Shown here one piece after another: positions 11,448 to 37,569 of a DNA stretch of 38,612 nt (positions within the stretch are counted from its first letter, which is position 1; each line of letters begins with the position of its first letter). Both the position numbers and the translations under genes were made by a program. This DNA is from a virus. The notes below the pieces were generated by a model. It searched no databases. It had not been told where the DNA came from and saw only the letters and a list, made by a program, of their open reading frames with translations. The stretch covers positions 1-38,612 of IMG/VR virus record IMGVR_UViG_3300042691_037568. One strand, given 5' to 3'.

Positions 11448-11744
11448 ATGCCAGTAATTAAAAAAACAGAAAGAAAAGATGGTGTTGTTGAATGTTTAAT
11501 AGACTCATCGAATATTTTATTATCGGAATATAATAAAATAGAAAAAACATTAAAAGTAACTTTTAAAGGTGGTACACAATATCTTTACAGGGATATATTA
11601 GATAGAGATTATGTAAGGTTTGAGGTTTCTGAAAGCCAAGGTTCTGTATTTAATAAAACAATGAAAAAATACAATTTTGATAAATTAGATAAAATAGATA
11701 CCACGTTATTAGTTGAGGAAATAAAAGAAAAGAAAAAAAATTAA
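11448..11744 (+). CDS. KTSC domain protein
   Basis: This 98-residue protein has the core of the KTSC domain: DSSNILLSEYNKIEKTLKVT, then FKGGTQYLYRDI and YVRFEVSESQGSVFNKTMKK. The domain is small, often found in phages and in lysyl-tRNA-synthetase-associated contexts, and has no settled function. Its last 4 bases overlap the stop of the convergent gene, with no room for a terminator between them. Confidence 0.75.
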   Translation: MPVIKKTERKDGVVECLIDSSNILLSEYNKIEKTLKVTFKGGTQYLYRDILDRDYVRFEVSESQGSVFNKTMKKYNFDKLDKIDTTLLVEEIKEKKKN

Positions 11745-12070
11745 GCTCTAGTAAAAGCTGTTACCTCTGTGATATCCATACAAGGCGGTTCCATTTCTGA
11801 CCTACTTCTAGCAACAAAAGTAAATATTGGACCTTCTGTGTACACAATATATTTTAAATCATCTTTTTCACTACCATAACTTAAAAATTTTATTACAATA
11901 TCTTCAAAACCATGTTCAGATAATTTTCTTTCAACTATACTCTTAACACTTTCACCAGTACATTCAATGTCTTTTAAAAATTGAGCAACTTCTATTGCAG
12001 AATAATCTGAAACCCTTCTTTCTACCAACTCATCTAATTGTGATTCTGTTATTCTAATTACTTTTTTCAT
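11741..12070 (-). CDS. Hypothetical protein with capsid-targeting-like N-terminus
   Basis: This 109-residue protein begins MKKVIRITESQLDELVERRV. That leader matches those of the genes at 26321, 26629 and 27167 (MKK-hydrophobic-I-K/R-L/I-T/N-E, then a second helix). The first I-x-E (ITE) is at residues 7-9, and KLSE follows near residue 50. The body (FLSYGSEKDDLKYIVYTEGP) resembles no family I know. It lies 3 bases after the GX3-repeat gene and is probably in its transcript. I infer a capsid-delivered protein, less surely than for the protease-linked copies because the second site lacks a clean I/L-x-E. Confidence 0.6.
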   Translation of the reverse strand: MKKVIRITESQLDELVERRVSDYSAIEVAQFLKDIECTGESVKSIVERKLSEHGFEDIVIKFLSYGSEKDDLKYIVYTEGPIFTFVARSRSEMEPPCMDITEVTAFTRA

Positions 12071-12073
12071 ATT

Positions 12074-12655
12074 TTAATAGTTTTCATCATAGTCCTCACC
12101 ATATTCTTCGGGGTCAAAACCGGACTCCCTTCTTTCTAAATCCTCAACTTCAATACCGGCTTCATATGCCCTTCCCTCTTCAAAGGCTTTATGGTAGGTT
12201 ACCTCAACGCCCTCATCGTAACCTTTTTCATGTCCATCAGATATACCATCATCGTATCCATCATCATAACCCTTATCATAACTTTCTTTTCTTATGTCTT
12301 CAGTATGATCATTTTCCTCTGTTTTACGTTCATCATAGCCCACACTATAGCCCTCACTATAACCTTCATTATAAGCATGATTATAAGCTTCTTGATGACC
12401 AATGTCAACACCTTCATTGTGACAATAATCACCAAAATGGTATAAAGCGGTAAATAAAGTTTTTAATTCATCTTTATTTAAACCTAACTTATGAATGGCT
12501 TTAGTAAGTTGACTTTCTTCAGGGTCTTTTCTATAACCAATATCACGAAGATCTCTAACTTTAGCAACAACCTCTTCCATTGTGGCAGGATTTATACCAC
12601 CAACCCAATCAAAGTCATTTTCTTCTTTTAGTATTTTCTTAATTAATTTTTTCAT
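12074..12655 (-). CDS. GX3-repeat protein with capsid-targeting-like leader
   Basis: I start at the second ATG (12655), because MKKLIKKILKE aligns with the other leaders; an ATG two codons earlier is possible. After ILKE the sequence ENDFDWVGGINP shares the DFDW module seen in other leader-bearing proteins. Two blocks (about residues 82-106 and 126-149) repeat Gly every four residues (YNEGYSEGYSVGYDE and YDKGYDDGYDDGISDGHEKG), as in deca-GX3/Yae1-like helices that pack by glycine ridges. The C-terminus is very acidic. The promoter motif is immediately upstream and shared with the divergent nucleotidyltransferase gene. The function is unknown; packaging into the capsid is inferred from the leader. 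Confidence 0.7.
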   Translation of the reverse strand: MKKLIKKILKEENDFDWVGGINPATMEEVVAKVRDLRDIGYRKDPEESQLTKAIHKLGLNKDELKTLFTALYHFGDYCHNEGVDIGHQEAYNHAYNEGYSEGYSVGYDERKTEENDHTEDIRKESYDKGYDDGYDDGISDGHEKGYDEGVEVTYHKAFEEGRAYEAGIEVEDLERRESGFDPEEYGEDYDENY

Positions 12656-12664
12656 TATCATTTA

Positions 12665-12684
12665 ATAAATATCGTGATATTTAT
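12665..12684. promoter_or_regulatory. Overlapping divergent promoters (inverted GATATTTAT repeat)
   Basis: ATAAATATC, two bases, then GATATTTAT form a perfect 9-base inverted repeat. Each arm is the gene-facing motif for one of the two divergent genes. The octamer end is 4 bases from the rightward ATG (12689) and 9 from the leftward ATG (12655). Confidence 0.65.
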
Positions 12685-12688
12685 GAAT

Positions 12689-13888
12689 ATGGATATAAAT
12701 GAGAAAAAAATTGAAAAAGCAAGTAGAAAAATAGACCTCTCAGGTTTTAAAATGCAAGATGAATTAAATCCTAAAATATGGGATGAAAATCAAAAAATGA
12801 AACCTGAAGTTAGAAAAAATTTATTAAAAATTGCTGATGATTTTTTTGAGTCTTTAGAAATACCCGATGTAGATATAGAAGATGTTTTTTTAATGGGTTC
12901 TTTAGCTAACTATAATTGGTCAAAATATTCTGATGTTGATTTACATATTTTAATTGATTATAAAGATGTTCCAGTGGATGAAGATTTAATATTAGATTTT
13001 TTTAAAGCAAAAACTTTTAAATGGTCACAAGAACATGATATCACAATTTATGGTTATGATGTTGAGCTTTATGTACAAAATATAGGTGAAGAATACCATT
13101 CAGAAGGTGTTTATTCTATTTTAAAAAATGAATGGGTTAGTGAACCAACAAAAAGAAAAATTACTATAAAAAGTAATTCAATTAAAAATAAAGCATCACA
13201 ATTAATGGATCGTATTGAGGGTCTATATGATTTATTATCGGATGAAGATGATTATGAAAAAGTAATCAGTGGTGTAGATAAATTAAAAAATAAAATTAAA
13301 AGAATGAGACAATCTGGACTTGAGTCTGGCGGTGAGTTCTCAATCGAAAATATGGTTTTTAAAGTTTTAAGAAGAAACGGTATGTTGGATAGACTTTATG
13401 ATATAAAAACTGTTGCATACGATAAATCCCTAACTTTAGAATCAAAAGAATTAAATACTTTATTAGAATCAATGACTAATGATGATTTAAATTGGATGAA
13501 AGAAATAAATCCTACACCAATAAAAAATGATATTGAGGGTGACCATGGTAAAGAATATGAAATAATTTTAGATTATTTTCGTAAAAATGGGGTTCAAAGG
13601 TATGGTAAATGGAAATACAATACTGATACCATGAGTGGTAGTGTAGAATGGTGGCAAGATGGTGAAAATGAGATTTTATTTTTTGCCACACCTTTTTGGA
13701 ATGGTGAACTTATTTTACCAATAGATTATCAGGCTGATATGGGTGATTATGATAGTGTTGAAATTATAGATTTACCCCAATTCTATTATGAAGAAGAATT
13801 AATAGAATGGTTAGAAAATAAATACCCTAAAATTGTCTCAAAAAATATTGAGGAATTTATGGGTGATTTAGGTCCTTTACCCGAATAA
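12689..13888 (+). CDS. Pol-beta-superfamily nucleotidyltransferase
   Basis: The start is ATG 12689; the GTG at 12674 and ATG at 12683 overlap the promoter motif. The 399-residue product shows the nucleotidyltransferase signature GSLANYNWSKYSDVDLHILI (residues 70-89), with metal-binding Asp82 and Asp84 and a third acidic site near 124-126 (YDVEL). Such enzymes add nucleotides to RNA, proteins or small molecules. The C-terminal third begins after LLESMTNDDLNWMKEINP (about 256-273), an internal copy of the L-x-E plus DFDW-like module, and forms a separate domain ending in EEFMGDLGPLPE. The target is unknown. The separate C-domain may relate to virion or prohead association. Confidence 0.75.
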   Translation: MDINEKKIEKASRKIDLSGFKMQDELNPKIWDENQKMKPEVRKNLLKIADDFFESLEIPDVDIEDVFLMGSLANYNWSKYSDVDLHILIDYKDVPVDEDLILDFFKAKTFKWSQEHDITIYGYDVELYVQNIGEEYHSEGVYSILKNEWVSEPTKRKITIKSNSIKNKASQLMDRIEGLYDLLSDEDDYEKVISGVDKLKNKIKRMRQSGLESGGEFSIENMVFKVLRRNGMLDRLYDIKTVAYDKSLTLESKELNTLLESMTNDDLNWMKEINPTPIKNDIEGDHGKEYEIILDYFRKNGVQRYGKWKYNTDTMSGSVEWWQDGENEILFFATPFWNGELILPIDYQADMGDYDSVEIIDLPQFYYEEELIEWLENKYPKIVSKNIEEFMGDLGPLPE

Positions 13889-21261: not shown

Positions 21262-23172
21262 ATGGCAGAAAATAAAGATAATCTAACAGTTTATCAAAAA
21301 TTGTATAAAATATTTGGGCGTGGTGGCACAATAAAGGCTAATACCGGAGGGAATCCAAAATATAGTTTTACAGATAAAGATTTAATCGTAACAAATTCTA
21401 GAGAAGATTACGAAAGACAAAAATTACAATTACAACAACAAAAATATTTAGATTCTCAGTGGCAAAAAATTGATAATGAGATGTATCAAAAAGCTACTTA
21501 TTATGAGACAACTAGATTAGCTTCTTATATGGATTATGAAGCCATGGAGTTTACACCAGAAATAGCTGTAGCTCTGGACACTATGTCAGAAGAAAGTTGT
21601 ACCTTAAATGAACAAGGTAAAATTTTATCCATTTATTCAGATTCCTCTAGAATAAAAAAAGTTTTAGAAGATTTATTTTACAATGTTTTAGATATCCATT
21701 CTAATTTACCAATGTGGACAAGAAATACTTGTAAATATGGTGATAATTTTGTACATCTAAAATTAAATTATAAATACGGTATCATCGGTTCTACTCAATT
21801 AACTAATATTGAAATCTCTAGAAACGATTCTAATAATTTTGAATTTAATGAAAATGATGTAGAAAAAAATGAAAAAAAGAAAGAGGTTAAATTTGAATGG
21901 AAATCTAAAAGATTAGAATTTAATGCTTGGGAGGTGGCTCACTTTAGGTTATTGGGTGATGACAGAAAATTACCATATGGAACTTCTGTTTTAGATAAAG
22001 TTAGACGTACTTGGAGGCAACTTCTTTTAGCTGAAGACGCAATGTTAGTTTATCGTGTGACTAGAGCACCAGAAAGAAGAGTATTTAAGGTTTATGTCGG
22101 TAATATTGATGATGCGGATGTTGAGGCTTATGTACAAAAAGTAGCAAATAAATTTAAAAGAACACAAACAGCTGATAATAAAACAGGTCAATTAGATGTT
22201 AGATATAACACTTTAGCTGTTGACCAAGATTATTTTGTCCCAGTTAGAGACCCAAATGCGTCGAGTCCGATTGAAACTTTGGCTGGTGCCGGTAACTTAG
22301 ATCAAATTGCTGATATACAATTTATTCAAAGAAAAATGGTGACAGCTTTAAGAATACCTAAAACTTTTTTGGGTTTTGATGAAGCTACTGGTGATGGTAA
22401 AAATTTAGCTTTATTAGATATTAGATTTGCTAGAACAATAAACAGAATACAACAGGCTATTATACAGGAATTAAATAAAATAGCGATTATTCATTTATAC
22501 GTTTTAGGTTTTCATGATGAACTGGGTAATTTTAAATTAAGTTTAAATAACCCGTCAACACAAGGTGAGATGTTAAAGGTTGAGCAATGGAAAGAAAAAG
22601 TTTTATTATATAAAGATTTAGTTGCAGCAACAGATGGTATAGCACCAACTTCACATACATGGGCTAAGAAAAATATATTTAACTGGTCTGATGACGAAAT
22701 TAGATTAGATTTGGAACAACAAAGACTAGAAAAGGCGGCTGCAGCAGAATTAGAAAAAACAGCAGAAGTTATTACAAAAACAGGTTTCTTTGATAAGGTA
22801 GATAAACTTTACGGTGATATTTTAACACAAAAAACTGGTGAAGCTGGTGGTGAAACTGGTGGTGAAGCTAGTGGTGAAGCTGGGGGATTTGGTGGAGGTG
22901 AAGCTGGCGGATTTGGTGGTGGATTTGGTGGAGGTGAAACCGGTGGATTTGGTGGTGAAGAATCTTCTGAATTAGGCGGTGAAGCTGGTGGTGAAACTGG
23001 TGGTGAAGAAACAGGTGGTTTTGGTGAAGGATTTAGAGGTGATGATAATGTAATAGATAAATTATTACTTGAGGGTAAGAAAAGAAATCAGGATATTTTT
23101 ATGATGACTAGAGGTATTGATGAATTGTTAAAAGAAGAAAATTTAGAGGACGACGACTTACTAATAGATTAA
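21262..23172 (+). CDS. Portal protein (T4 gp20-like)
   Basis: This 636-residue protein has the T4-type portal pattern: YMDYEAMEFTPEIAVALDTM in the N-terminal part, then WEVAHFRLLGDDRKLPYGTS, VYRVTRAPERRVFKVYVGNI and QFIQRKMVTALRIPKTFLGF with DGKNLALLDIRFARTINRIQ. It forms the dodecameric vertex through which DNA is packaged and on which the prohead core assembles. The C-terminal region (about 535-600) is a Gly/Glu-rich low-complexity stretch (GGEAGG, FGGGFGGG repeats) not typical of T4 gp20. The terminase, protease, scaffold and capsid genes around it fit this call. Confidence 0.9.
   Translation: MAENKDNLTVYQKLYKIFGRGGTIKANTGGNPKYSFTDKDLIVTNSREDYERQKLQLQQQKYLDSQWQKIDNEMYQKATYYETTRLASYMDYEAMEFTPEIAVALDTMSEESCTLNEQGKILSIYSDSSRIKKVLEDLFYNVLDIHSNLPMWTRNTCKYGDNFVHLKLNYKYGIIGSTQLTNIEISRNDSNNFEFNENDVEKNEKKKEVKFEWKSKRLEFNAWEVAHFRLLGDDRKLPYGTSVLDKVRRTWRQLLLAEDAMLVYRVTRAPERRVFKVYVGNIDDADVEAYVQKVANKFKRTQTADNKTGQLDVRYNTLAVDQDYFVPVRDPNASSPIETLAGAGNLDQIADIQFIQRKMVTALRIPKTFLGFDEATGDGKNLALLDIRFARTINRIQQAIIQELNKIAIIHLYVLGFHDELGNFKLSLNNPSTQGEMLKVEQWKEKVLLYKDLVAATDGIAPTSHTWAKKNIFNWSDDEIRLDLEQQRLEKAAAAELEKTAEVITKTGFFDKVDKLYGDILTQKTGEAGGETGGEASGEAGGFGGGEAGGFGGGFGGGETGGFGGEESSELGGEAGGETGGEETGGFGEGFRGDDNVIDKLLLEGKKRNQDIFMMTRGIDELLKEENLEDDDLLID
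22839..23032 (+). repeat. Gly/Glu-rich low-complexity repeat in portal C-terminus
   Basis: Imperfect repeats of GGTGAAGCTGG and GGATTTGGTGG encode GGEAGGETGG and GGFGGGFGGG segments. Similar short units lie in tandem, which favours length change by slippage or recombination. Confidence 0.75.
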
Positions 23173-23197: not shown

Positions 23198-23992
23198 ATG
23201 GATTTTGGTACAGTAAAAGATATCTTTACAGAAAAATTAATAGAATCTTATATCTCAAAAGATAAAAAAGGTAAAAATCTTTATAAAAAATTTATAAAAA
23301 CAATAAAAGAAAATGAGGTTTTAAAAACTGCTTTTATTGTTTATAAAAACATAGAAGATAAAACTATAAAAAGTGAGGTTAGAGCCAATGAATATTTAAA
23401 AGAAAATATTTCATTATTAGAAAAATATCGGGGTGATGATTCCATTAAAAAACAAACAAATATTTTATTAGGTATTCTAAAAGAAAATAATGTAGATTTA
23501 TCCACAAGAAAAATTAAAGAGGTACATAAGAATTTAGAAACTATTTTACATAGTGAAAAAAACGCTTTAACAATAAATAAAATAGAAGAGAGTAAATCTA
23601 ATCTATTAGAATGGTTAATGACGGATAAAAAAATAAACACAGAAGAAGAAAGTAGTTACATTAAAGAAAATGTTGATTTAAAAAAATTCTTAAAGATAGC
23701 TACTGAAAAATTTAATGAAAAATATTCTGAATTAACAGAAGAAGAAAAAGATATTTTAAAAGTTTTACGTGAAAATGACAAAGAAAAAACTAAAACTTTA
23801 GTATCCCAATTAATAAAAGAGACAATTTCTTTAGTCAACCAACATTTAGAACAAAATGTTGATAACGTTACAATTAAATCAAAATTATTAGAAACTAAAG
23901 ACGCCATTTATAAAATGGTAGAAAATAGTGATGATTCTAATCAAAATGTTTTAAGATTGTATGAACTAAAGAAAAACCTAAAAAATGATTAA
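23198..23992 (+). CDS. Helical prohead-core-type protein
   Basis: This 264-residue protein is Lys/Glu-rich and almost wholly helical (MDFGTVKDIFTEKLIESYIS, later KYSELTEEEKDILKVLREND). It has several I/L-x-E sites (FTE and LIE in the first 16 residues). It occupies the place where T4 has the small core proteins gp67 and gp68, between portal and protease. No sequence family is recognised. The core role is inferred from position, composition and cleavage-like sites. It overlaps the next gene by 8 bases. Confidence 0.6.
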   Translation: MDFGTVKDIFTEKLIESYISKDKKGKNLYKKFIKTIKENEVLKTAFIVYKNIEDKTIKSEVRANEYLKENISLLEKYRGDDSIKKQTNILLGILKENNVDLSTRKIKEVHKNLETILHSEKNALTINKIEESKSNLLEWLMTDKKINTEEESSYIKENVDLKKFLKIATEKFNEKYSELTEEEKDILKVLRENDKEKTKTLVSQLIKETISLVNQHLEQNVDNVTIKSKLLETKDAIYKMVENSDDSNQNVLRLYELKKNLKND

Positions 23993-25556: not shown

Positions 25557-26324
25557 ATGAAAATATTAAAACCAAATGAAGCGGGATATGGCTTTTTAGT
25601 GGAATATGATTCTGGATATATTAGTCCTGAGTTAAGTTGCCCCGATGGTGTTTGCACAAATCACAATTTAATAAAAGAATTTAAATCTGGTACAAATCTA
25701 GGTTTAGATGGTGAACTACCTGATAAAATAGAAATCTATGCTGTTTTACAAAAATGGGGTGTAGAAAATAAAAATGGTAGAGTTTATCCTGAGGATATCC
25801 TAAAAAGAGAGGCGAAAAGATATCAAGAGTTTATTGACATGGGTACGTCTTTAGGGGAATTAAATCACCCCGAATCTTCTATCATTGATGCTGATAGGGT
25901 TTCCCATAGAATAACTGAAATATGGTGGGAAGGTAGAACTTTAATGGGTAAAATGGAGTTAGACACAACACCAGGTTATCATAAAATGGGTATTATCTCT
26001 TCTGTTGGGGATAAGGTATTAAATATGATTAGAAAAGGGTGGACAGTAGGTATTTCATCAAGGGGAGTTGGTTCATTAAAAAATGAAAATGGTAAAAATG
26101 TTGTACAAAAAGATTTTGAATTAATTTGTTGGGACATCGTAACATCACCTTCTACACCTGGCTCTTGGATTTCTACTAATGAAAAGGATTTAACCCCTTA
26201 TACGGAATCTACTGATAAAAAAATAGATTTATTAAATAATAGTTCAAATATAATAGTGGATAACCTATATTTATCTGAAAATGAGTCTAAATTATTAAAC
26301 AACTTAAATAAATTTTTATTGTGA
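25557..26324 (+). CDS. Prohead core protease (T4 gp21-like)
   Basis: This 255-residue serine protease of the herpes/T4 prohead type has IYAVLQKWGVENKNGRVYP, then SLGELNHPESS with catalytic His104, GWTVGISSRGVGS with the Ser167/168 nucleophile, and FELICWDIVTSPSTPGSW with a candidate third residue, Asp193. In T4 this enzyme cuts core and capsid proteins after I/L-x-E and then digests itself. Its stop overlaps the GTG of the first small targeted protein. Four leader-bearing genes follow, so protease and substrates are made together. Confidence 0.88.
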   Translation: MKILKPNEAGYGFLVEYDSGYISPELSCPDGVCTNHNLIKEFKSGTNLGLDGELPDKIEIYAVLQKWGVENKNGRVYPEDILKREAKRYQEFIDMGTSLGELNHPESSIIDADRVSHRITEIWWEGRTLMGKMELDTTPGYHKMGIISSVGDKVLNMIRKGWTVGISSRGVGSLKNENGKNVVQKDFELICWDIVTSPSTPGSWISTNEKDLTPYTESTDKKIDLLNNSSNIIVDNLYLSENESKLLNNLNKFLL

Positions 26325-26632
26325 AAAAAATAATCAAATTAACTGAACAGGATATTGAGAGGTTGGTTAAAAAAATTCTTAAAGAAAACGATGACATGGG
26401 GTGGATGGAAAATACATACAATACTGACCAACACACACAAGAAGAAATGAATCGTGTATGGGAGGATTTAAATGAATTAAACAATGATGAAGTTTTCGAA
26501 TTAATGGAATTAACTTTTAATGAAGAAAGGATGAGTGTTGAGGATTTTGTTAATCATCTACCAACAAGTTTTGATTATGATTATAACTATATTGTTTCTG
26601 TTTTGAAACAAATACAAAATGAAGGGATATGA
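26321..26632 (+). CDS. Capsid-targeted-type small protein 1
   Basis: This 103-residue protein starts with GTG that overlaps the protease stop. The leader MKKIIKLTEQDIERLVKKIL ends with KEND, giving L-T-E at 7-9 and L-K-E at 20-22, both fitting the prohead-protease rule. Next comes NDDMGWMENTYN, a variant of the DFDW module. The acidic helical body (ELNNDEVFELMELTFNEERM) matches no family I know. I infer an internal head protein that is trimmed and injected. Confidence 0.7.
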   Translation: MKKIIKLTEQDIERLVKKILKENDDMGWMENTYNTDQHTQEEMNRVWEDLNELNNDEVFELMELTFNEERMSVEDFVNHLPTSFDYDYNYIVSVLKQIQNEGI

Positions 26633-27102
26633 AAAAAGTAATAAAATTAAACGAAAAATCTCTTGAGTCTTTGGTGAATAAAATTATCAAAGAAGAAAAA
26701 ATTCAAGAAGCTCTACCAAGAAGAGAACGTGAAAGACACCAAACTAATTGGAGAAAAAGAGAATTTGAACCTTACGATAGAGAAAAAGATATAATGGGTG
26801 CTTTTGGTCCTTATTCTAGTGATGTACCACCTAACGTTATTTCTTATTTAAGAAAAAACCCAAGAACATTTTTACAAAGAGTTGTGGATATCTATGGAAT
26901 GGATAAAGTATTAGACTTTATTGGTTATCAACAACCAGAAATGGCGGAAGGATATGATTCATACATGGGTGATTTCGTTAATAAAATGTATAAAGAATAC
27001 AAAGAAGGTAAAATATCAAAAGAAGAATTAAAATCTTTAATACCACATTTAGAAAGACATGAAAAAGAAAAACTTCTTAATCTTCTACAACCAAAAAATT
27101 AA
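26629..27102 (+). CDS. Capsid-targeted-type small protein 2
   Basis: This 157-residue protein begins MKKVIKLNEKSLESLVNKII then KEEK, with L-N-E at 7-9 and I-K-E at 20-22. The body is strongly charged (ALPRRERERHQTNWRKREFE) and carries EGYDSYMGDFVNKMYKEY, the YDSYMGD motif found three times in the large acidic protein. It overlaps the previous gene (ATGA). A basic, processed internal protein could bind packaged DNA. Function is otherwise unknown. Confidence 0.7.
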   Translation: MKKVIKLNEKSLESLVNKIIKEEKIQEALPRRERERHQTNWRKREFEPYDREKDIMGAFGPYSSDVPPNVISYLRKNPRTFLQRVVDIYGMDKVLDFIGYQQPEMAEGYDSYMGDFVNKMYKEYKEGKISKEELKSLIPHLERHEKEKLLNLLQPKN

Positions 27103-27110
27103 ATAATTTT

Positions 27111-27155
27111 TTGCGCAAGCTGCAAGCTTAAGCAGCTAAAGCAAAAGCAAGCAAA
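27111..27155 (+). repeat. AGC-rich palindrome cluster in the cargo operon
   Basis: In a 64-base gap, TTGCGCAA is followed by AGCTGC, loop AAGCTTAA, GCAGCT (27118-27137) and then AAGC-type short repeats. This is a strong local hairpin in AT-rich surroundings. It has no T tract, so it may regulate or stabilise the mRNA of the next gene rather than end transcription. Confidence 0.5.
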
Positions 27156-27166
27156 ATAAAAAAAAA

Positions 27167-27484
27167 ATGAAAAATAAAGTAATAAGATTAACTGAATCAG
27201 ATTTAGAAAAATTAGTTAAAAAAATTATTAACGAAGCTGAAGAAATTGACCCTAACGATTCTTCTAATAACCAACCAGAAGAAAACCAAGATAACCCACA
27301 AGACGTTAAACTCTTTCTAGACGCGATGAAAAAATATTTTATGCAAAAATATCCAAAATTTGCCTCTAGAATTAACACCAAAAAAGAAAAAGCTATGCTT
27401 TTAGCAGCTTTAGCTAATGAACTACAAGTAGATTCAAGTATGATTAATTTAGCTAAATCTGAACTTAAAAAATTAGGAATGTAA
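27167..27484 (+). CDS. Capsid-targeted-type small protein 3
   Basis: This 105-residue protein begins MKNKVIRLTESDLEKLVKKI then INEAEE, with L-T-E at 8-10 and I-N-E at 21-23, a textbook I-x-E followed by Ala as in T4 internal proteins. A disordered linker (DPNDSSNNQPEENQDNPQD) leads to a helical domain (LFLDAMKKYFMQKYPKFASR, LAALANELQVDSSMINLAKS). No family is recognised. An A-rich leader precedes the ATG. Confidence 0.7.
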   Translation: MKNKVIRLTESDLEKLVKKIINEAEEIDPNDSSNNQPEENQDNPQDVKLFLDAMKKYFMQKYPKFASRINTKKEKAMLLAALANELQVDSSMINLAKSELKKLGM

Positions 27485-27485
27485 A

Positions 27486-28010
27486 ATGAATATTCGTAAA
27501 ATCATAAAAGAAGAATTACTTAAAGAAGCAGGTGGATATGATTCACCTGAAATTATGTCCCAACACGCTGGACATGTTATGGGTAGTTTAAAAACAACTA
27601 TTAAAGACTTAAATTTTGGTTTAATGGGTTTCATAGAATTACTGAGTAATGCAGATGTTAGTCATTTAGAAATGAATGAGGAAATAGAATCTTTAAATGA
27701 TTTAATTTTAGATTCAAAATTAATTGTTAAAATTCTTATTGAAGAATTTACTGAAGATAGATTAGTTGAAGAAAGTAAAAAATTAATTGTACAATTAGAT
27801 TCTTTAGAAGGTAGATTAAAATTTTTAAATAATTTAAAATTTGACTACACTACTAAACAGTACAAACAAAGTTTGGCAGAAAAAATATTAGAATTTTCTA
27901 ATTTTTTAAATACCTATATTAAGACTATTATAGAAACAGATAAAATTTTTGGTAAGAGATTAAGTGGTAAAAATAGAGGCTGGTCTGGTGACCAAATAAA
28001 TGTAAATTAA
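27486..28010 (+). CDS. Capsid-targeted-type protein 4
   Basis: This 174-residue protein starts MNIRKIIKEELLKEAGGYDS: I-K-E at 7-9 and L-K-E|A at 12-15. The first ten residues equal those of the lysozyme at 34011, yet the codons differ at several wobble positions, so selection acts on the peptide. The rest is helical (GHVMGSLKTTIKDLNFGLMG, SKKLIVQLDSLEGRLKFLNN) without membrane segments. It starts one base after the previous stop. I infer packaging into the head; the activity is unknown. Confidence 0.7.
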   Translation: MNIRKIIKEELLKEAGGYDSPEIMSQHAGHVMGSLKTTIKDLNFGLMGFIELLSNADVSHLEMNEEIESLNDLILDSKLIVKILIEEFTEDRLVEESKKLIVQLDSLEGRLKFLNNLKFDYTTKQYKQSLAEKILEFSNFLNTYIKTIIETDKIFGKRLSGKNRGWSGDQINVN

Positions 28011-28396: not shown

Positions 28397-30181
28397 ATGA
28401 GTTCAATTAATGTCAATAATATCTACCCTTTTACCACAAATGGGCCAATAACTTTAAGTAATACAACCAAATTTACAATAAATTCAAGTCTAGAAAATGG
28501 TAATCAAACAGTAGCATCTGGAAATTATTCTCATGCTGAAGGTTTAGGGACAACAGCTTTACAAAACTATTCTCATGCTGAAGGTTATTTAACAAAATCT
28601 TTGGGTGGTGGTTGTCACTCTGAAGGGTTTTGGACTACTGCTGATGCTATTGGTTCTCACACTGAAGGTTATTATACAACAGCATCAGGATATCATTCTC
28701 ATGCTGAAGGTAGTTATACGATGACATCAGGATATTATTCACACGCTGAAGGTCAATATACATCATCTTTAGGTGAATCTTCACACGCTGAAGGTGTTAG
28801 TAATGTTGCAATAGGTAATGCTTCCCATGTTGAGGGTTCTTTAAATGCTTCAGTTGGTTACGCTTCACACGCTGAAGGTGTTGAGACAACAGCTCTAGCT
28901 GATTACTCTCACACTGAAGGTATTTATACAATTGCTAACGGTCAGGGGCAACATGTTTCAGGTTTGTGGAATCTAACTGCGTCAACAGAAGGAGCTTTTA
29001 TCATAGGTAATGGTAATGAATTTAATAGAAGTAATCTATTATTTGCGGCAAATAAACAGGTTGAGGTTTTTGGTAAAACAAAAACAACAAATTTCCAAAT
29101 GACTTCTGGAGCAACAGCAGGTTACGTTCTTACATCAGATGCTTTAGGTAATGGTAGATGGTCACAAGTAACAGGAAGTGGTTCTTCTATTTTTACAGGA
29201 AACACACCGTCAACATGTATAAATAACATATATTTAACAAACATAAATGCTTGTTCACCAGCTTCTTCTATAATTTTTAGAAATAAAAGACAGTCTAATA
29301 ATTCTATAGCTAATGGTACACTTTCACACGCTGAAGGTTTACAAACAACAGCACAAGGTTCTTATTCTCATTCAGAAGGAAATTTAACTACATCTTTAGG
29401 TTTATATTCTCACTCTGAAGGGTATCAAACCACATCCTTAGGTCTTTGGTCCCATTCAGAAGGTCTTCAAAATAAATCAATAGGGGTATCTTCACACGCT
29501 GAAGGTTTACAAACAACCTCTATTGGAAATGGTTCACATACGGAAGGTTTAGGGACAATAGCTCAAGGAGCTGTCCAAACTGTTGTGGGTAGATATAATT
29601 TAACCGCATCAACAGAAGGGGCTTTTATAATTGGGAATGGTTTAACTGGTTCAAATAGAAGTAATTTATTAGTTGCGGTTAACAATCAAGTTGAGGTAAT
29701 TGGTAAAACAAAAACAACAAATTTCCAAATGACTTCTGGAGCAACAGCAGGTTACGTTCTTACATCAGATGCTTTAGGTAATGGTTCTTGGCAATTAGCT
29801 CAATCTAATGGTTTCCAATATTATACAGTTGTAACAATCACAAACTCACAAATACTAACGTTATCATCAATTCCGGTTCAAATATTACCACAACCAGGGG
29901 TTAATAAATATTATGATTTTAAAGTTTATTTTGAGTATACTTATGGTACTACCACTTATATTTCTAATCCGGTTTATTTAGTTGATAGTACTTTTAAACC
30001 TATCTCAAACCCAATCGACATACAACTACCAAATAACGTGATATTAATTAGTGATATGAACACATCCTCTAACTATTCACCCGTTAATTCAAATTTAAAT
30101 GTAACAACATCATCAGACCCAACTAATGGTGATGGTAGTTTAAAGGTTAAAATTTATTATAATATAATAGATTTTGGTTAA
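28397..30181 (+). CDS. YadA-head-like fibre protein with duplicated head modules
   Basis: This 594-residue protein contains two consecutive head modules. Repeats of the SHAEG type span about 47-190 and 305-395, each followed by the cap (NLTASTEGAFIIGNG, RSNLL, FQMTSGATAGYVLTSDALGN). Between them lies the FTGNTPSTCINNIYLTNINA linker, also seen in the fibre at the window start. The C-terminal 120 residues are a distinct beta domain (YTVVTITNSQILTLSSIPVQ, YFEYTYGTTTYISNPVYLVD). It is a paralogue of the two fibre genes at 2-3135 but lies inside the head cluster. It is probably an alternative receptor-binding fibre or a head fibre. Confidence 0.8.
   Translation: MSSINVNNIYPFTTNGPITLSNTTKFTINSSLENGNQTVASGNYSHAEGLGTTALQNYSHAEGYLTKSLGGGCHSEGFWTTADAIGSHTEGYYTTASGYHSHAEGSYTMTSGYYSHAEGQYTSSLGESSHAEGVSNVAIGNASHVEGSLNASVGYASHAEGVETTALADYSHTEGIYTIANGQGQHVSGLWNLTASTEGAFIIGNGNEFNRSNLLFAANKQVEVFGKTKTTNFQMTSGATAGYVLTSDALGNGRWSQVTGSGSSIFTGNTPSTCINNIYLTNINACSPASSIIFRNKRQSNNSIANGTLSHAEGLQTTAQGSYSHSEGNLTTSLGLYSHSEGYQTTSLGLWSHSEGLQNKSIGVSSHAEGLQTTSIGNGSHTEGLGTIAQGAVQTVVGRYNLTASTEGAFIIGNGLTGSNRSNLLVAVNNQVEVIGKTKTTNFQMTSGATAGYVLTSDALGNGSWQLAQSNGFQYYTVVTITNSQILTLSSIPVQILPQPGVNKYYDFKVYFEYTYGTTTYISNPVYLVDSTFKPISNPIDIQLPNNVILISDMNTSSNYSPVNSNLNVTTSSDPTNGDGSLKVKIYYNIIDFG
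29071..29785 (+). repeat. Exact 85-base repeat (29071-29155 and 29701-29785)
   Basis: Two identical 85-base segments encode the FGKTKTTNFQMTSGATAGYV-type cap end of the two head modules, 630 bases apart. Flanking DNA is only similar, so the identity suggests recent module duplication or gene conversion. Confidence 0.9.
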
Positions 30182-30193
30182 AAATTAATATTT

Positions 30194-30622
30194 TTAATCT
30201 TGGTATTCTTTTGGTAAGCCTATTTTATCAGCTATTTTCTTAAATAAACCAGTATGTTCTTTATAAGAAGGTAAATCCTCACCGACACATGCGTGTATTA
30301 ATTCATGAGTAATAACCCATTTCAAATATTCTTTATTTTTTAAAGCTTTTGACTTAATACCCATTAAACCATTTTCACCATTTTTTGGGTGGTTAAATCC
30401 AGCAATTTTACCATCTTTAATAGAATCATCTATTTTTATATCTATTTTAGGCATATTACAATTTTTACCAGTAATATCAAAGTAGATTTTTTTAATCTTA
30501 CCCTCAATACTATTTTTTAAATCTTTGATTTGGGTTAAATCGTCACTTTCTTTAATCAGATAGTGTTTTTTTGATTCTAAAATCAAAACTCTTTTTACAG
30601 TATTTCTAATATTTTTTATCAT
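30194..30622 (-). CDS. SprT-like zinc metallopeptidase with capsid-targeting-like leader
   Basis: I start at the ATG at 30622, because the promoter motif lies inside the longer possible frame. The 142-residue product begins MIKNIRNTVKRVLILESKKH and YLIKESDD, with L-x-E sites (ILE at 14-16, IKE at 23-25). The catalytic part is WVITHELIHACVGEDLPSYK then EHTGLFKKIADKIGLPKEY: an HExxH zinc site with a downstream His in EHTGLF, as in SprT/SprT-like peptidases. It is the only minus-strand gene within the head cluster. The inferred role is a protease carried in the head and delivered at infection. It could instead act late on virion proteins. Confidence 0.75.
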   Translation of the reverse strand: MIKNIRNTVKRVLILESKKHYLIKESDDLTQIKDLKNSIEGKIKKIYFDITGKNCNMPKIDIKIDDSIKDGKIAGFNHPKNGENGLMGIKSKALKNKEYLKWVITHELIHACVGEDLPSYKEHTGLFKKIADKIGLPKEYQD

Positions 30623-30626
30623 ACTT

Positions 30627-30638
30627 AGATAAATATCA
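30627..30638 (-). promoter_or_regulatory. GATATTTAT promoter motif for the metallopeptidase
   Basis: On the minus strand TGATATTTATCT ends 6 bases before the ATG. It shows that the motif follows gene direction, not genome strand. Confidence 0.65.
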
Positions 30639-30687
30639 CAAAAAAAATAAATGTTTTTATAAAAAAAATTAATCTTTTCCACATTTA

Positions 30688-30699
30688 TTGAATATTTAT
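30688..30699 (+). promoter_or_regulatory. ATATTTAT promoter motif before scaffold gene
   Basis: TGAATATTTATT lies 61 bases before the scaffold ATG, an unusually long leader in this genome. A hairpin (30709-30722) lies in that leader. Confidence 0.55.
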
Positions 30700-30702
30700 T
30701 TG

Positions 30703-30727
30703 GAAACATGCATTATCTAATGCTGTT
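30703..30727 (+). promoter_or_regulatory. Hairpin in the 5' leader of the scaffold mRNA
   Basis: GCATTA, two bases, TAATGC form a perfect inverted repeat, flanked by AAAC and GTTT that may extend the stem around a small bulge. It is either a translational or stability element or a regulator-binding palindrome. Confidence 0.4.
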
Positions 30728-30759: not shown

Positions 30760-32100
30760 ATGGCAGAAAAAAGAAAGTCTATCATCGACGAAGCCCTTCT
30801 AGAAAGTGAGCAAATTGAAAAAGCTTTTGAGGCCAACGCGAAAGAAATACTGACTCGTACAATGAGTTCAGAAATTGAAGACATGGTAAAGGAATCTTTA
30901 GAAGGTTCGATTGGTTTAATGGAGGATGAAGATGAAGAAGAAATTGATTTAGATTTGGACTTAGGTTCAGATGAAGCCGAAGCAGGCGCTAGTGATGACC
31001 TAGACATTGATTTAGGTGATGAAGAAGATGACGAAGATGGTTTAGGTTTAGTTGACAACTTAAATTTAGGTAATGATGATGAAGGTGTGATGGTAAATGA
31101 CCTTACATCTGAAAAAAACATTAATAAAGTTATCGATGTTTTCAAAAAAATGAGTCCAGAAGATGAAATCGAAGTTGTTCAAACTGAAACTGGGGTTGAA
31201 CTTAAGGATAATGAAACTGGTGCCGAATATGTAATAAATTTAGGTGGTGACGATGAAGAGGATGAAGACTTTGATTTAGAGCTTGGTGACGATGAAGAGG
31301 ATGAAGACTTTGATTTAGAGCTTGGTGACGATGAAGAGGATGAATTTGAAAATGAGACTTCTGAAGGTACTATCTATGAAATCGTTTTAGACGAAGATGA
31401 TTATATGACTGAAATTGGTGCCGCTTCTGGAAGAGGTACTGAACATCTTGACATGTTAAGAGATTTTTGTAGAAAATGTAAAGAAGACTCAGATAATATG
31501 AGTAATGCTGATAAAAAAGATTGTGCAGAAAATTGTGAAGGAATGGAAGAAGGTAGATCACCAAGAACACTTGGTAAAGCTTCTAAATTACCGAACAGAA
31601 AATCTGCTGACATCAGTAATAATCGTATGAAAATGGGTGAATCTAGAAATCCTAAATTTTTACAGTTAGTTAACGAAAACAAAGTTCTTAAAAATAAAGT
31701 AACCTCAATTGTTGATGAGAATGAGACGCTTAAAGAAGATTACAATAAAATGGTATCAGCACTTAAGCAATTCAGAGACAAACTTAATGAGGTAGCAGTT
31801 TTTAATAGTAATTTAACTTATTCAGTAAGATTATTTACAGAAAATACTACTACTAAAGAAGAAAAATTAGAAATAATCAAAAGATTTGATGATGTTAAAA
31901 CTCTTAAAGAATCTAAAAATATTTACAAACAATTAATTAAAGAGATTTCTAAAAAGGAACCAATCAAAGAATCTATTGAAACTAGGTTAAATGAAACAAA
32001 ATCAAGTGGATCATTAACAGAAATTAATGAATCAAAAGTTTATTCTAATCCTGAGCTAGAAAAAATGAAAAAGCTTTGGGACTACAAATATAAACAATAA
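30760..32100 (+). CDS. Prohead scaffold/core protein (T4 gp22-like)
   Basis: This 446-residue protein lies directly upstream of the capsid gene, as gp22 does in T4. It starts MAEKRKSIIDEALLESEQIE with several I/L-x-E sites, then long acidic tandem repeats (GDDEEDEDFDLEL), an RNPKFLQLVNENKVLKNKVT coiled-coil region (about 305-350), and a helical C-terminus ending KKLWDYKYKQ. Scaffold proteins of this type fill the prohead and are degraded by the prohead protease, which fits the many cleavage-like sites. The call rests on position and composition more than on residue identity. Confidence 0.75.
   Translation: MAEKRKSIIDEALLESEQIEKAFEANAKEILTRTMSSEIEDMVKESLEGSIGLMEDEDEEEIDLDLDLGSDEAEAGASDDLDIDLGDEEDDEDGLGLVDNLNLGNDDEGVMVNDLTSEKNINKVIDVFKKMSPEDEIEVVQTETGVELKDNETGAEYVINLGGDDEEDEDFDLELGDDEEDEDFDLELGDDEEDEFENETSEGTIYEIVLDEDDYMTEIGAASGRGTEHLDMLRDFCRKCKEDSDNMSNADKKDCAENCEGMEEGRSPRTLGKASKLPNRKSADISNNRMKMGESRNPKFLQLVNENKVLKNKVTSIVDENETLKEDYNKMVSALKQFRDKLNEVAVFNSNLTYSVRLFTENTTTKEEKLEIIKRFDDVKTLKESKNIYKQLIKEISKKEPIKESIETRLNETKSSGSLTEINESKVYSNPELEKMKKLWDYKYKQ
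31246..31343 (+). repeat. 39-base acidic tandem repeat in scaffold gene
   Basis: Two identical 39-base units (31246-31284 and 31285-31323) and a 20-base partial third encode GDDEEDEDFDLEL. Perfect identity suggests slippage-type expansion. Confidence 0.9.
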
Positions 32101-32133: not shown

Positions 32134-33936
32134 ATGGGATATTTATTAAAATCAGGTGAGGTTGGTAATATCGGACTTAAGCATCAAAAAGCTGTTCGTG
32201 AGGCAACTGTAAACAAATGGGACTCTTTAGGATTCCTAGAAGGTCTTAATGGCCACGTAAGAGAGAACATCGCTTTGTTATATGAAAACCAAGCATCAGT
32301 TCTTATTAATGAGACTACTGCAGCTGAAGGTGGTGGATCAACAGGTTCTTTTGAAACTGTAGTTTTCCCTATCGTTAGACGTGTATTCTCTAAATTATTA
32401 GCTAACGACATCGTTTCTGTACAAGCATTAAACTTACCAATCGGTAAATTATTTTACTTTGTACCTAAAACATCTGAAAGAATCGGTGATTTAGTAAACG
32501 ATGGTGATACAGCAGCACACGGTGAAATGGTTGTTACAACTTGTATCACTGATAACGTTTCTTGTGATGAAACAGTTTTCTCTAACTGTGCTAAAAATCT
32601 TTACGATAGATTTTATAATGATGGTTTATACGACCAATCAAAAGGTAAAGTTACTTTAGTTGTTACTAATGGTACTCCAGTTATTTGGTCAGCTTGCTCA
32701 AGCCCAAATCAATCTGAATTTGTTGGTGGTGTAACTGCTTTCGCTGGTGACGGTTCTGTTAGAACTCAAATTCTTGAAGTAACTGGGTTTGATAACGCTG
32801 GACAAGGTAGACTTTTAGGTCCTGACGGAAACGAAATGGATACAGAATCTTTCTTAGCTTCATTAGCTGTAACTGTTGATGGTGACATTGTAGATAGAGA
32901 CGGTAAAGTAATTTATACATCTGGTGATGAGGTTCCAGTTAGAGTTGTTACTCAAAGATATGGTAAAGCAATTGCTAGTTATAGTGATATTTGTACAAAT
33001 GACGGTAAAATGTATATTGAGGTTGATTTAACTCACCCTGTATGTGTTACTTGTGGTGACGGTACATTTGATGGTTATGTAGGTGCTCAATCTGGAACTA
33101 CATCTATCGTTCCTGGTGTTGGTGTTGCTGACCTAGGTGGTGTTAATTTTGTTATCACTTATAGAAGATACGATGATTTAGAGCTTGAGTCTCAAATGGG
33201 TGAAGTTTCTTTCGAATTAGAATCTGTAACTGTTTCTGTAACTGAAAGAAAACTAAGAGCTACTTGGACTCCTGAATTAGCACAAGACGTTTCTGCATTC
33301 CATAACATCGATGCTGAAGCTGAATTAACAGCATTACTTTCTGAGCAAGTTGCAGCAGAAATTGACCGTGAAATCCTACGTGACTTACGTAAAGGTGCAG
33401 CATGGCAATTACGTTGGGATTACAATGGTTGGAAGAGATTACCTAACAACAACGGTTACACTCAAAAAGACTGGAACCAAACGTTAGTAACTGCGATTAA
33501 CCAAATCTCAGCACAAATCCATAAATCTACATTAAGAGGTGGAGCTAACTTTGTAGTAGTATCTTCTGAAGTATCAGCTATTTTTGATGATTTAGAATAC
33601 TTCCACGTATCTAACGCTTCTCCTGAACAAGATAACTACAACATGGGTATTGAAAGAGTAGGTTCACTTTCTGGAAGATATACAGTATACCGTGACCCTT
33701 ACGCACCAGCTTACTCTGTATTACTTGGTCATAAAGGTTCTTCATTGTTAGACACAGGTTACATTTACGCTCCGTATGTACCTCTACAATTAACACCTAC
33801 AATGTACAATCCATTTAACTTTGTACCTGTTAAAGGTATCATGACTCGTTACGCTAAGAAAATGGTTAACAACCGTTTCTACGGACACATCAGAGTTGAT
33901 GGTTTACGTACATTTGACGTAAGAGAATTAAGATAA
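32134..33936 (+). CDS. Major capsid protein (T4 gp23-like)
   Basis: This 600-residue protein resembles gp23: an N-terminal segment with WDSLGFLEGLNGHVRENIAL and LLYENQASVLINE|TTAAE, where cleavage after Glu60 would match the T4 removal of 65 residues. Then come TGSFETVVFPIVRRVFSKLL, the HK97-fold core with QDVSAFHNIDAEAELTALLS and DREILRDLRKGAAWQ, and FYGHIRVDGLRTFDVREL at the end. Codons are noticeably more GC-ending than in neighbours (TTC, ATC, AAC), as expected of a highly expressed gene. A strong terminator follows. Confidence 0.92.
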   Translation: MGYLLKSGEVGNIGLKHQKAVREATVNKWDSLGFLEGLNGHVRENIALLYENQASVLINETTAAEGGGSTGSFETVVFPIVRRVFSKLLANDIVSVQALNLPIGKLFYFVPKTSERIGDLVNDGDTAAHGEMVVTTCITDNVSCDETVFSNCAKNLYDRFYNDGLYDQSKGKVTLVVTNGTPVIWSACSSPNQSEFVGGVTAFAGDGSVRTQILEVTGFDNAGQGRLLGPDGNEMDTESFLASLAVTVDGDIVDRDGKVIYTSGDEVPVRVVTQRYGKAIASYSDICTNDGKMYIEVDLTHPVCVTCGDGTFDGYVGAQSGTTSIVPGVGVADLGGVNFVITYRRYDDLELESQMGEVSFELESVTVSVTERKLRATWTPELAQDVSAFHNIDAEAELTALLSEQVAAEIDREILRDLRKGAAWQLRWDYNGWKRLPNNNGYTQKDWNQTLVTAINQISAQIHKSTLRGGANFVVVSSEVSAIFDDLEYFHVSNASPEQDNYNMGIERVGSLSGRYTVYRDPYAPAYSVLLGHKGSSLLDTGYIYAPYVPLQLTPTMYNPFNFVPVKGIMTRYAKKMVNNRFYGHIRVDGLRTFDVRELR

Positions 33937-34010: not shown

Positions 34011-35276
34011 ATGAATATTAGAAAAATAATAAAAGAGGAAATAGGGGATTTTGATTGGGCTAAAGGTGATGTTTATTTTACCATTGACGACATTATTGGT
34101 AAACAAATGTATTACAGAAAAAATAATATTGAAAACAAAGTACTTACTGATCTTAATCGTGGTGATGTTGAATTGGGTGATATTAGATGGGATAAGGGTT
34201 GGGTGGTTAAAGAAGTCTTAGAAAATGGTATGTGTCTTCTTCTTTTAGATAAAGATAAAACCACCACTACTGGATATAGAAAAGAGTCTGTTGAAGCCTA
34301 TGTTAATCTAGGTGCTTGGGTTTTATTAGATAATGATGGTAATATTTTGAATGATTTTTCTAATAAAATTAATGAATCTGAATATTATTTAAATAAAGTA
34401 ATTAAAAAATTATCTCTATTAAAAGAAGATGGTAAAACCGAACCAGATATGGAATGGGATTTTACTCAAATTAAACAAGACTTAGATAAATCAAAACAAT
34501 GGGTTAAAACGGCAGAAGATGTTAAAAAATATTTAACACTTCTTTTTCAAAAAATAAAAAATTTACCTAAAAAAACAAAATTAAAAATATTAAAATATGT
34601 TTTAATTTCTTTTATTGGTTTAATTTCATTAAAAGAATTAAGTTCGATAACAAAAGAAGTTTCACCTGAAAAAATAGACTTGGTTTTATCGGATAAATCA
34701 AATAAAGATTCGACACACATCCTTAAAAAAAATATAAAGATAAGGAAAACAAGTAACGAGTTAATAGACCATCTTAAATGGGAGGAGGGTTCAATAAAAG
34801 AAAAAGGAAAACCTGTTTTAACTGCTTATGATTTAGGTGATGGTGCTTATACCATTGGTTATGGTCATGCTGTATTTTCTGACCCTTCTAGAGGTGATAA
34901 TGGTGGTAAATATGATTTTCTACCTAAATATAATAAAATCTTACCTGGCAAAACAAAAATAACACCCCAACAAGCTGAAATTCTATTAAAAGATGATATT
35001 AAAATAGCCGAAGAAGGGCTTAATAAAATTTTAAATGATTGGGATAAAATGGGTATTAATCCTAGTATTAATCAAAAAATGTATGACGCCATGATATCAA
35101 TGATATTTAATATGGGTATACAAAATTTTAGAATGTCAGATTTTATTCAAATGGTGAAAAAAGGTGACTTAAAAAGTGCTTCAAACGAAATAAAAAATAT
35201 TAGTTCAAATATGTTTAATAAATACCCTGGTCTTAAAATTAGAAGAGAAAAAGAATATGAATTATTCAGGTCTTAA
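34011..35276 (+). CDS. GH24 lysozyme with capsid-targeting-like leader and membrane segment
   Basis: The 421-residue protein begins MNIRKIIKEEIGDFDWAKGD: leader, I-K-E site at 7-9, then the DFDW module. Residues 20-115 form an unknown small domain. A helical linker leads to one hydrophobic segment (about 191-208, LKILKYVLISFIGLISLKEL). The lysozyme domain spans about 248-421 with the T4-lysozyme triad pattern: HLKWEEGS (Glu258/259), LTAYDLGDGAY (Asp273) and YTIGYGHA (Thr281), ending YPGLKIRREKEYELF. It cleaves peptidoglycan. The leader and capsid-adjacent gene suggest it enters the virion; the membrane segment suggests action from the membrane at entry or lysis. Confidence 0.82.
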   Translation: MNIRKIIKEEIGDFDWAKGDVYFTIDDIIGKQMYYRKNNIENKVLTDLNRGDVELGDIRWDKGWVVKEVLENGMCLLLLDKDKTTTTGYRKESVEAYVNLGAWVLLDNDGNILNDFSNKINESEYYLNKVIKKLSLLKEDGKTEPDMEWDFTQIKQDLDKSKQWVKTAEDVKKYLTLLFQKIKNLPKKTKLKILKYVLISFIGLISLKELSSITKEVSPEKIDLVLSDKSNKDSTHILKKNIKIRKTSNELIDHLKWEEGSIKEKGKPVLTAYDLGDGAYTIGYGHAVFSDPSRGDNGGKYDFLPKYNKILPGKTKITPQQAEILLKDDIKIAEEGLNKILNDWDKMGINPSINQKMYDAMISMIFNMGIQNFRMSDFIQMVKKGDLKSASNEIKNISSNMFNKYPGLKIRREKEYELFRS

Positions 35277-36457: not shown

Positions 36458-37135
36458 TTATTGTTTATTTTCTGTTGCGTATTTAATACCCATAATTGTT
36501 CCTACAATTGAAAAGGCGTTTGTTAAAAGTATCCCAAATATGTTTGACCAAGCGGCACTTATAACTTGGGTGTCCTTACCAATAAATAGTGTTAAAACAT
36601 AAACACCGGTAGTAACAAAACCCACACCCATAATAACCCAAAGAGCCACTTTTACTATTGTGGATATGAGTTCGTTTTGTGTTTTCTTTTGTAATAAATC
36701 TAAATCGTTTTCTGCGTTTTGTTTTGCTGCTTCTGCATCTACTCTTGCCTTTTCAGCTTTCATCATTTCACTTTGAAGTTTTTCTGTAAGTTCTAAATTT
36801 TCTTTTTTCCATTCGTTAAGTTCTTTATTTTGAACTTCAAAAGTTAGTTTGGATTCTTCTATTTCTGTAATTTTGTTTTGAAGATCGTCCATGATTTTTT
36901 GGTTTTCTCCAACTAAATGTGACAACCTAATATTTTGTTCTTGGACTTGTTTTGTGATGCCCATTCTTTTTTTACGAGCTTCCTTGTCTTTAGTGTTACA
37001 ATAATCTAAATACGTATCAAATTCTTTGTCGTTATTAACTTTAAACAATTTTAAAATATTTCCTTCTAAACAAATGTCTTTTTGTTTTTGGAGTTCTATT
37101 AATTGTTTTCTAGTTTCTTTATCGGGTGAAATCAT
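36458..37135 (-). CDS. Coiled-coil protein with two C-terminal membrane segments
   Basis: This 225-residue protein has an N-terminal part with MISPDKETRKQLIELQKQKD, a long coiled coil (about 60-150: NIRLSHLVGENQKIMDDLQN to AAKQNAENDLDLLQKKTQN), then two hydrophobic helices (about 158-182 and 192-217: STIVKVALWVIMGVGFVTTG; NIFGILLTNAFSIVGTIMGI). Its start overlaps the response-regulator stop (ATGA), and the endolysin follows after 24 bases. It could be a holin-like pore, or the membrane output or sensor partner of the two-component pair. No known family is recognised. Confidence 0.7.
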   Translation of the reverse strand: MISPDKETRKQLIELQKQKDICLEGNILKLFKVNNDKEFDTYLDYCNTKDKEARKKRMGITKQVQEQNIRLSHLVGENQKIMDDLQNKITEIEESKLTFEVQNKELNEWKKENLELTEKLQSEMMKAEKARVDAEAAKQNAENDLDLLQKKTQNELISTIVKVALWVIMGVGFVTTGVYVLTLFIGKDTQVISAAWSNIFGILLTNAFSIVGTIMGIKYATENKQ

Positions 37136-37569
37136 TTGTAAACTTTAAATGTTGCTGTTCTAGCTTTATAACCCTCATAATCTTTTTTAAACTCTTCTAA
37201 TCTTGGTTCAATCTCATCTGATTTAATAATCCAAAATTGAGCTCCCGCTTGTAGAGCCTTTGCCTGTTCTTCGGACTCATTTGAGGATGAGATTATACCA
37301 ATAACAACGTGATTACCGTATTCAAAATTTATTTTTCTAATCAGCTCTATCCCATCAAAGGAACTACCGATTATGTTCAAGTCAACAAAAACACACTCAG
37401 GTCTATACTCAGGTGTTTTATCGTCAAACCATTTTTTAAACATCGCGGCCGCCTCATCTGCACTACTTATAGATTTTAATGATAAACTAATATCTAATAG
37501 AGAACATGCGTCTTCAAATACTAAATGAAACAAATCCTCGTCGTCAACTAATAAAATAGAATCAATCAT
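37132..37569 (-). CDS. Single-domain response regulator (CheY-like)
   Basis: This 145-residue receiver domain contains acidic pocket Asp9/Asp10 (ILLVDDEDLF), phosphoacceptor Asp63 (CVFVDLNIIGSSFDGIELI), Ser94-type switch residue (GIISSSNES) and Lys116 (FWIIKSDE). There is no DNA-binding output domain, so it must act by protein contact. The ATG directly follows the kinase stop codon, and the end overlaps the membrane coiled-coil gene. This strongly suggests a kinase-to-regulator-to-membrane-protein relay. Confidence 0.88.
   Translation of the reverse strand: MIDSILLVDDEDLFHLVFEDACSLLDISLSLKSISSADEAAAMFKKWFDDKTPEYRPECVFVDLNIIGSSFDGIELIRKINFEYGNHVVIGIISSSNESEEQAKALQAGAQFWIIKSDEIEPRLEEFKKDYEGYKARTATFKVYK

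Follow-up and report, generated by a model that had tools for sequence, protein, structure and literature searches.

The locus studied here raises the question of whether a phage may use one kind of short N-terminal peptide for loading many different proteins into its head. The preliminary description, made from the DNA letters alone, had noted that four genes directly behind a gp21-like prohead protease gene open with basic leaders ending in I/L-x-E, and had inferred a plug-in tag resembling that of T4. This observation is confirmed, all four leaders being present where they had been placed, but it was understated. Very probably, the leader represents a greatly expanded capsid-targeting system of the T4 style, whereby packaging, cleavage and injection are inferred by analogy with T4.

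The window, i.e. the whole 38.6 kb of DNA analysed, is an IMG/VR virus record and one piece of a larger T4-like phage genome. Its capsid protein (PF07068) and portal (PF07230) satisfy the requirement of a gp23/gp20-type head; the head genes are collected in Table 1 together with the leaders and the fused proteins. The S77 protease has a conserved site of its own, NLI[KRN]E/FKSG after nt 25679 (relatives compared; a slash marks the presumed boundary throughout), and the capsid protein has a presumed maturation site, VLINE60/T after nt 32313, placed by alignment to T4 gp23*. The probable scaffold protein carries N-terminal sites, IIDE/A and LLE/S, that are conserved among relatives; a family search with this protein gave no convincing match. 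Among the best isolates matching the capsid protein was the Flavobacterium phage immuto, but a Microcystis phage was found there too. The leader phages are probably a family of large T4-like phages infecting Bacteroidota, which is inferred, not proven, from the nearest isolates and from the resemblance to huge freshwater Bacteroidetes phages that encode bS21 (PMC9723584). The latter are likewise large myoviruses in which the genes for TerL, portal, prohead protease and capsid are grouped, with an opposite-strand gene inside the block, as in the window. The window phage probably falls into the same broad group, although membership was not tested. The bS21 paper, however, deals with a ribosomal protein and not with leaders, and goes no further than to suggest possible packaging of bS21 (PMC9723584).

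Table 1. Head-module genes, leaders and fused cargo proteins in the window (a slash marks the presumed boundary).
Feature	Position	Strand	Gene, support or remark
DHH-phosphoesterase-like domain + ECF sigma factor, 653 residues	6678..8639	+	Pfam sigma-70 r2/r4, weak DHH
Leader-like N-terminus ..RRVSD, final E missing	12005..12070	-	gene 11741-12070
Short leader MKKLIKKILKE/ENDFDW	12623..12655	-	gene 12074-12661
Nucleotidyltransferase-like protein + extra domain	12674..13888	+	PHROG 36119 over residues 14-255
Terminase	19052		
T4-type portal (gp20)	21262..23172	+	PF07230 1.1e-72
Small core protein (probable), between portal and protease	23198..23992	+	conserved site KL[IV]E/S, from relatives
S77 (gp21-type) prohead protease	25557..26324	+	PF03420 E 2e-27, PHROG 207
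Long leader MKKIIKLTEQDIERLVKKILKE/N	26321..26386	+	gene 26321-26632, GTG start; kept in orthologues
Long leader MKKVIKLNEKSLESLVNKIIKE/E	26629..26709	+	gene 26629-27102; sites IIKE/E and IQE/ALPRRE
Long leader MKNKVIRLTESDLEKLVKKIINE/A	27167..27235	+	gene 27167-27484
Short leader MNIRKIIKEELLKE/AGGYD	27486..27527	+	gene 27486-28010
Divergent leader MIKNIRNTVKRVLILE/S	30575..30622	-	SprT-like metalloprotease gene 30194-30709
Prohead core/scaffold protein (probable), gp22 position	30760..32100	+	precedes gp23, acidic, relatives
gp23-type major capsid protein	32134..33936	+	PF07068 1.9e-70
Short leader MNIRKIIKE/E	34011..34037	+	gene 34011-35276; kept in orthologues

Overall, the leader comprises about 9-23 N-terminal residues, is basic and in most cases amphipathic, and has I/L-x-E as its end; the leaders on the four genes behind the S77 protease have 14-23 residues. 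The leaders had been called near-identical, which holds for the long ones but not for the whole set, since two types exist. Long leaders (~22 aa, consensus MKKxVIRLxExDIExLVKKIIKE) are frequent in the head-gene cluster, and short ones (~9-14 aa, with the forms M(K/R)NLIKKILKE or MNIRKIIREE) are spread over the whole genome. In the gene at 26629, the second of the two sites is better defined than the first. Further copies had been proposed at 11741, 12074, 30194 and 34011. Those at 12074 and 34011 stand, the latter on a phage lysozyme (PF00959 1.4e-19) with an extra N-terminal DFDW domain. The leader at 30194, whose body is SprT-like with a score under the Pfam cut-off (1.8e-4), is divergent, but its orthologues have canonical leaders (MRSLIKKVLSE and MERKIKNIIRKVITE). 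The gene at 11741 has the front half of a long leader and ends in VSD, while its orthologue at G003:137448 reads RINE; targeting is possible for this protein, and cutting is doubtful. As had been claimed, the leaders at 27486 and 34011 have ten residues in common and differ in the codons, namely in 3 of the 10. When the long leaders are paired within each genome, a different codon is used for 30% of the identical residues overall. An AlphaFold model of the 27486 protein has a low-confidence helix at residues 3-14 and a break at 14-16, followed by a confident four-helix bundle. A structure search with this bundle returned generic helical matches only, none with E <= 0.001, and thus gave no indication of function.

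After the short leader, a DFDW-like motif was observed within 16 residues in 39 of 115 cases (about a third). It often opens a small recurring domain, also ahead of the 34011 lysozyme (window 34011-34070 and 12623-12655; G001, G003), and it may be part of a domain that recurs at the N-termini of the mature proteins.

Chance does not account for the number of leaders. In the window, 7 of the 44 genes match the leader pattern, as against 0.05 in shuffled N-termini. The count per related genome, which the preliminary description had proposed as a check, amounts to 38, 18, 31 and 29 genes tagged at their start codons in the contigs G001-G004 (210-380 kb), where shuffled N-termini give an expected 0.1-0.6 per contig. 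A stricter pattern leaves 16, 9, 14 and 22 genes against 0-0.15 in shuffled sequences, and of 5,378 internal Met positions in these contigs and the window only 8 match the leader pattern. A DNA pattern for the middle of the leader, which demands neither a start codon nor a terminal site, matched the window twice (0.00 in 100 shuffles) and 91 stretches in IMG/VR. In the loci analysed it has 84 distinct matches, every one of them with an ATG or GTG 1-4 codons upstream, and 81 of them continue into [ILVMF]xE at the right spacing. A scrambled pattern gave no matches, which is only a rough control because it exceeded the real pattern in length by one codon. Searching isolated phages by tblastn with the bare leader gave no match; since low-complexity filtering or the query length may be responsible, this blank is not evidence of absence. 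Among the orthologues of tagged genes, 27 reciprocal pairs were tagged by pattern in both members and 44 in one only, whereby many of the 44 show a visibly degenerate leader.

The end of the leader, which had been taken as its boundary, was assessed by anchoring on the body motif and not on the leader itself. In the 27486 family, [IL]xE lies 0-3 residues before GGYD in 21 of 21 relatives (background 1.8%), and E14 of the leader is invariant in all of them, including two with a long leader and two fusions. In the 26629 family, [ILVM]xE directly precedes ALPRRE in 12 of 12 relatives (background again 1.8%), counting those where the ALPRRE-type body start could be located. The same kind of site is kept in the major capsid protein: all relatives covering it have hydrophobic-x-E (mostly LINE) followed by T/A/S at the position where T4 gp23 is matured. 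The leader-end site thus matches the phage's own capsid site, as required of a T4-type system, but the preferred residue after the E differs, being often E or D (E in 61 of 115 short leaders) as opposed to T/A/S in the capsid protein. Because of this acidic residue, the exact cut bond may differ in some tagged proteins.

Behind this boundary the bodies are highly diverse. The 141 tagged proteins from six contigs fell into 103 clusters by their bodies, 88 of which have a single member, so that a short N-terminal peptide is shared by unrelated bodies, as is also required of a CTS system of the T4 type. Recognisable bodies include lysozyme, SprT-like protease, CCA-adding enzyme, ECF sigma factor and PAP2, and one body carries an internal-virion-lysozyme motif. 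The majority have no recognisable function, and therefore the earlier statement that many different enzymes are loaded is borne out only in part. A scan of the cargo for defence systems gave weak WYL matches only. The plug-in character of the tag is supported from both sides, i.e. one body may carry different leaders and one leader may precede different bodies. Indeed, the GGYD body of the 27486 family has a long leader in L022 and L104 and a short one in most relatives, with the same terminal E. A tag precedes the CCA-type nucleotidyltransferase of G004 but not its best partner in G003. Orthologues with as little as about 30% identity still retain the leader. Four genes of G001 with different bodies have almost the same leader DNA (most bins agree in 18-20 of 20 bases), whereas before the ATG and past the leader end the likeness is at background; the leader DNA has therefore been copied as a cassette.

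Sites of the leader type were also found inside longer proteins. The phosphoesterase-sigma factor fusion at 6678 has an N-terminal site, L10xE12/S, and another at the domain junction, KKRLLKE485/I after nt 8132. In 11 aligned relatives, L10 and E12 are invariant. Conservation is lowest at the junction (mean 0.63 vs 0.88 and 0.75), where indels occur as well, yet the site there is present in 11 of 11 fusions: K480 and E485 are invariant, and the second residue ahead of the E is always hydrophobic. In G001 (G001:84505) and L414 the sigma factor has a gene to itself, which opens with an ordinary short leader. The AlphaFold model of the fusion was poor (mean pLDDT 51) and was not used as evidence. 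The nucleotidyltransferase-like protein at 12674 has LLE265/S at its junction, after nt 13468, and homologues of its C-terminal part stand alone with a tag (MKELIKKILKE in L080, MKNLIKKILKE in G004:80025). In L088 a complete long leader lies between two domains, and in L077 and L084 the 27167 and 27486 types are joined, with IDE/V or LDE/I at the seam. It is inferred that processing in the prohead probably releases the parts of such fusions as individual proteins.

Leaders common in phages without a gp21-type protease would have refuted the proposal; such phages were searched for and not found, with G042, G046 and smaller contigs left out of the tracing. The S77 protease is present in 25 of 36 contigs found with the long-leader pattern, in 12 of 32 found with the short-leader pattern and in every tested leader contig over 290 kb. 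Short-leader contigs without it lack the T4 portal too. Leader contigs of considerable length (163-214 kb) that lack S77 and the T4 portal were considered as a refutation and rejected because the traced ones are fragments of S77 phages: G040 and G048 duplicate the S77-positive G002 (192 of 194 and 195 of 195 genes in common); G038 is collinear with the S77-positive G043 and ends at the latter's 97 kb, shortly before the G043 head module at about 103-115 kb; and G037 has about 100 of its 217 genes in common with G043. Among 85k bacterial and archaeal genomes, matched in 8 stretches, the sole convincing leader contig also carries S77; the other matches were judged to be short ORFs or unrelated proteins. 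This convincing contig, from a Prochlorococcus single-cell genome (L332, QCKH01000009.1), encodes at least two tagged proteins and is probably a phage sorted along with the cell.

By inference from T4, the leader would bind the prohead core, i.e. the gp22-like protein at 30760, during late assembly, and the tagged proteins would be enclosed as the gp23 shell closes. The S77 protease at 25557, which is the presumed leader-removing enzyme, would then cut after I/L-x-E as in the capsid protein and free the cargo within the head, whereby fused cargoes (phosphoesterase-sigma factor, nucleotidyltransferase-DFDW domain and others) would be split at the I/L-x-E of their junctions. Finally, as in T4, the cargo would be injected with the DNA. 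No virion proteomics of a close relative was found in the literature.

If the leader were instead an amphipathic helix docking to the membrane or to a partner in the infected cell, and never cut or packaged, this would fit the basic and strongly amphipathic character of several leaders and the membrane- or envelope-related nature of some bodies (lysozyme, PAP2). The DFDW motif after many short leaders, which resembles part of a binding peptide and is left unexplained by a pure cut-off tag, is a further point in its favor. However, a docking helix explains neither the fixed boundary I/L-x-E in the 33 body-anchored relatives nor the site in the capsid protein, the sites at the fusion junctions and the tie to S77, and it is regarded as quite unlikely. 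Retention of the E in 21 of 21 and 12 of 12 relatives, and at fusion junctions within an otherwise poorly kept linker, also argues against head targeting without cutting, in which the leader of many proteins would bind the core and stay attached. In T4, when Asp replaces the terminal Glu at CTS position 10, targeting still takes place while processing is blocked (PMC9026906), and 11741 shows a comparable change at its site; moreover, acidic residues after the E are frequent, and SPN3US has 42 uncut head proteins (PMC10052503). Even so, targeting without cutting for many of the proteins is considered very unlikely. Hardly any weight can be given to the possibility that the leaders are functionless DNA relics of gene duplication or of a mobile element: although some leader DNA is nearly identical among genes of one genome, the copies cover the leader ORF only, the identical residues are differently coded to the extent given above, and the leader survives in distant orthologues.

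In T4, the IPs enter the core by means of CTS propeptides 10-19 residues long, which gp21 removes and which also work on foreign proteins (PMC9026906). That the CTS is a conserved tag on diverse proteins, which lets T4-like phages load varied proteins, has already been published (PMC9026906, PMC3012670). As on IPI, IPII, IPIII and Alt, the leader is a short N-terminal propeptide, one tag on diverse proteins, in a phage with the gp23/gp20/gp21 head module, and cutting C-terminal to Glu by an S77 protease is inferred for it. In contrast to the four proteins of T4, there are 18-38 candidates per large contig; the leaders form basic helices, come in two interchangeable types, are copied as cassettes, have internal copies in fusions and, as far as such short peptides can be compared, show no clear sequence match beyond the end of the CTS; and the cargo includes a sigma factor, a lysozyme, a SprT-like protease and a CCA-adding enzyme. 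The giant phages SPN3US (gp245) and phiKZ (gp175), with S80 proteases, also have many internal head proteins from which the prohead protease removes propeptides, some of these proteins being ejected, and giant-phage gp53 and gp54 have an identical 15-residue N-terminus in common (PMC5694885, PMC10052503). They differ in the protease family (S80, not S77), in the site (A-x-E, not I/L-x-E) and in the mostly long propeptides, and most of their head proteins remain uncut.

Delivery of transcription machinery with the genome is likewise familiar, since N4 and phiKZ package RNA polymerases in the virion. The same has been described for SPN3US (PMC10052503). In the present phages, by contrast, an ECF sigma factor is the candidate for such delivery; it either carries a tag of its own or follows a phosphoesterase in a fusion that retains a cleavage-type site. 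No description of the scale (18-38), the two interchangeable leaders, cassette copying, cargo polyproteins or a tagged sigma factor was found in the open-access literature; the principle is already known, and the scale and these variants are new as far as that literature shows. A delivered sigma factor would let the phage steer the host RNA polymerase from the first minute, and a tagged one would give viruses a new route to the immediate redirection of host transcription. The genes of large phages are for the most part without an assigned function, and a readable tag marks dozens per genome as predicted injected effectors, gives the exact predicted mature N-termini and provides two naturally interchangeable packaging tags; the four-protein precedent of T4 would be extended to probable arsenals of about 20-40. 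The broader idea, only mildly favored at present, is that each virion carries dozens of effectors by way of one exchangeable tag, a sigma factor and protease-cut enzyme polyproteins among them, and that this preloaded arsenal, not early expression, starts the host takeover.

Related-looking leaders were found in LR756508, immuto and Mel-JY01, those of immuto being divergent and few in number. In LR756508, a 484-kb uncultured phage, leaders that differ from these but are similar to them (MRLSERKLRRIVKEEI.. etc.) lie clustered around the S77 protease and capsid genes at 152404-195316. Fragments resembling gp23, mostly open frames of 138-217 aa distant from the main capsid gene, were seen in several related contigs, at G002:185587-185974 and G004:11337-11696 and in G005, G022, G033, G034 and G036. 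Elsewhere in the window there are a sulfotransferase-family protein (5828-6646, PF13469 3e-16), a complete ClpB/ClpC-like AAA+ ATPase (8668-11130, minus strand) and, at 37132-38547 on the minus strand, an HATPase protein (PF02518 1e-11) followed by a receiver (PF00072 1e-9), which resemble a phage-borne two-component system. Long repeats of the SHAEG type, like the YadA head repeat of trimeric adhesins, occur at 272-3135 and 28397-30181 in probable fiber proteins, one copy of which sits within the head-gene cluster.
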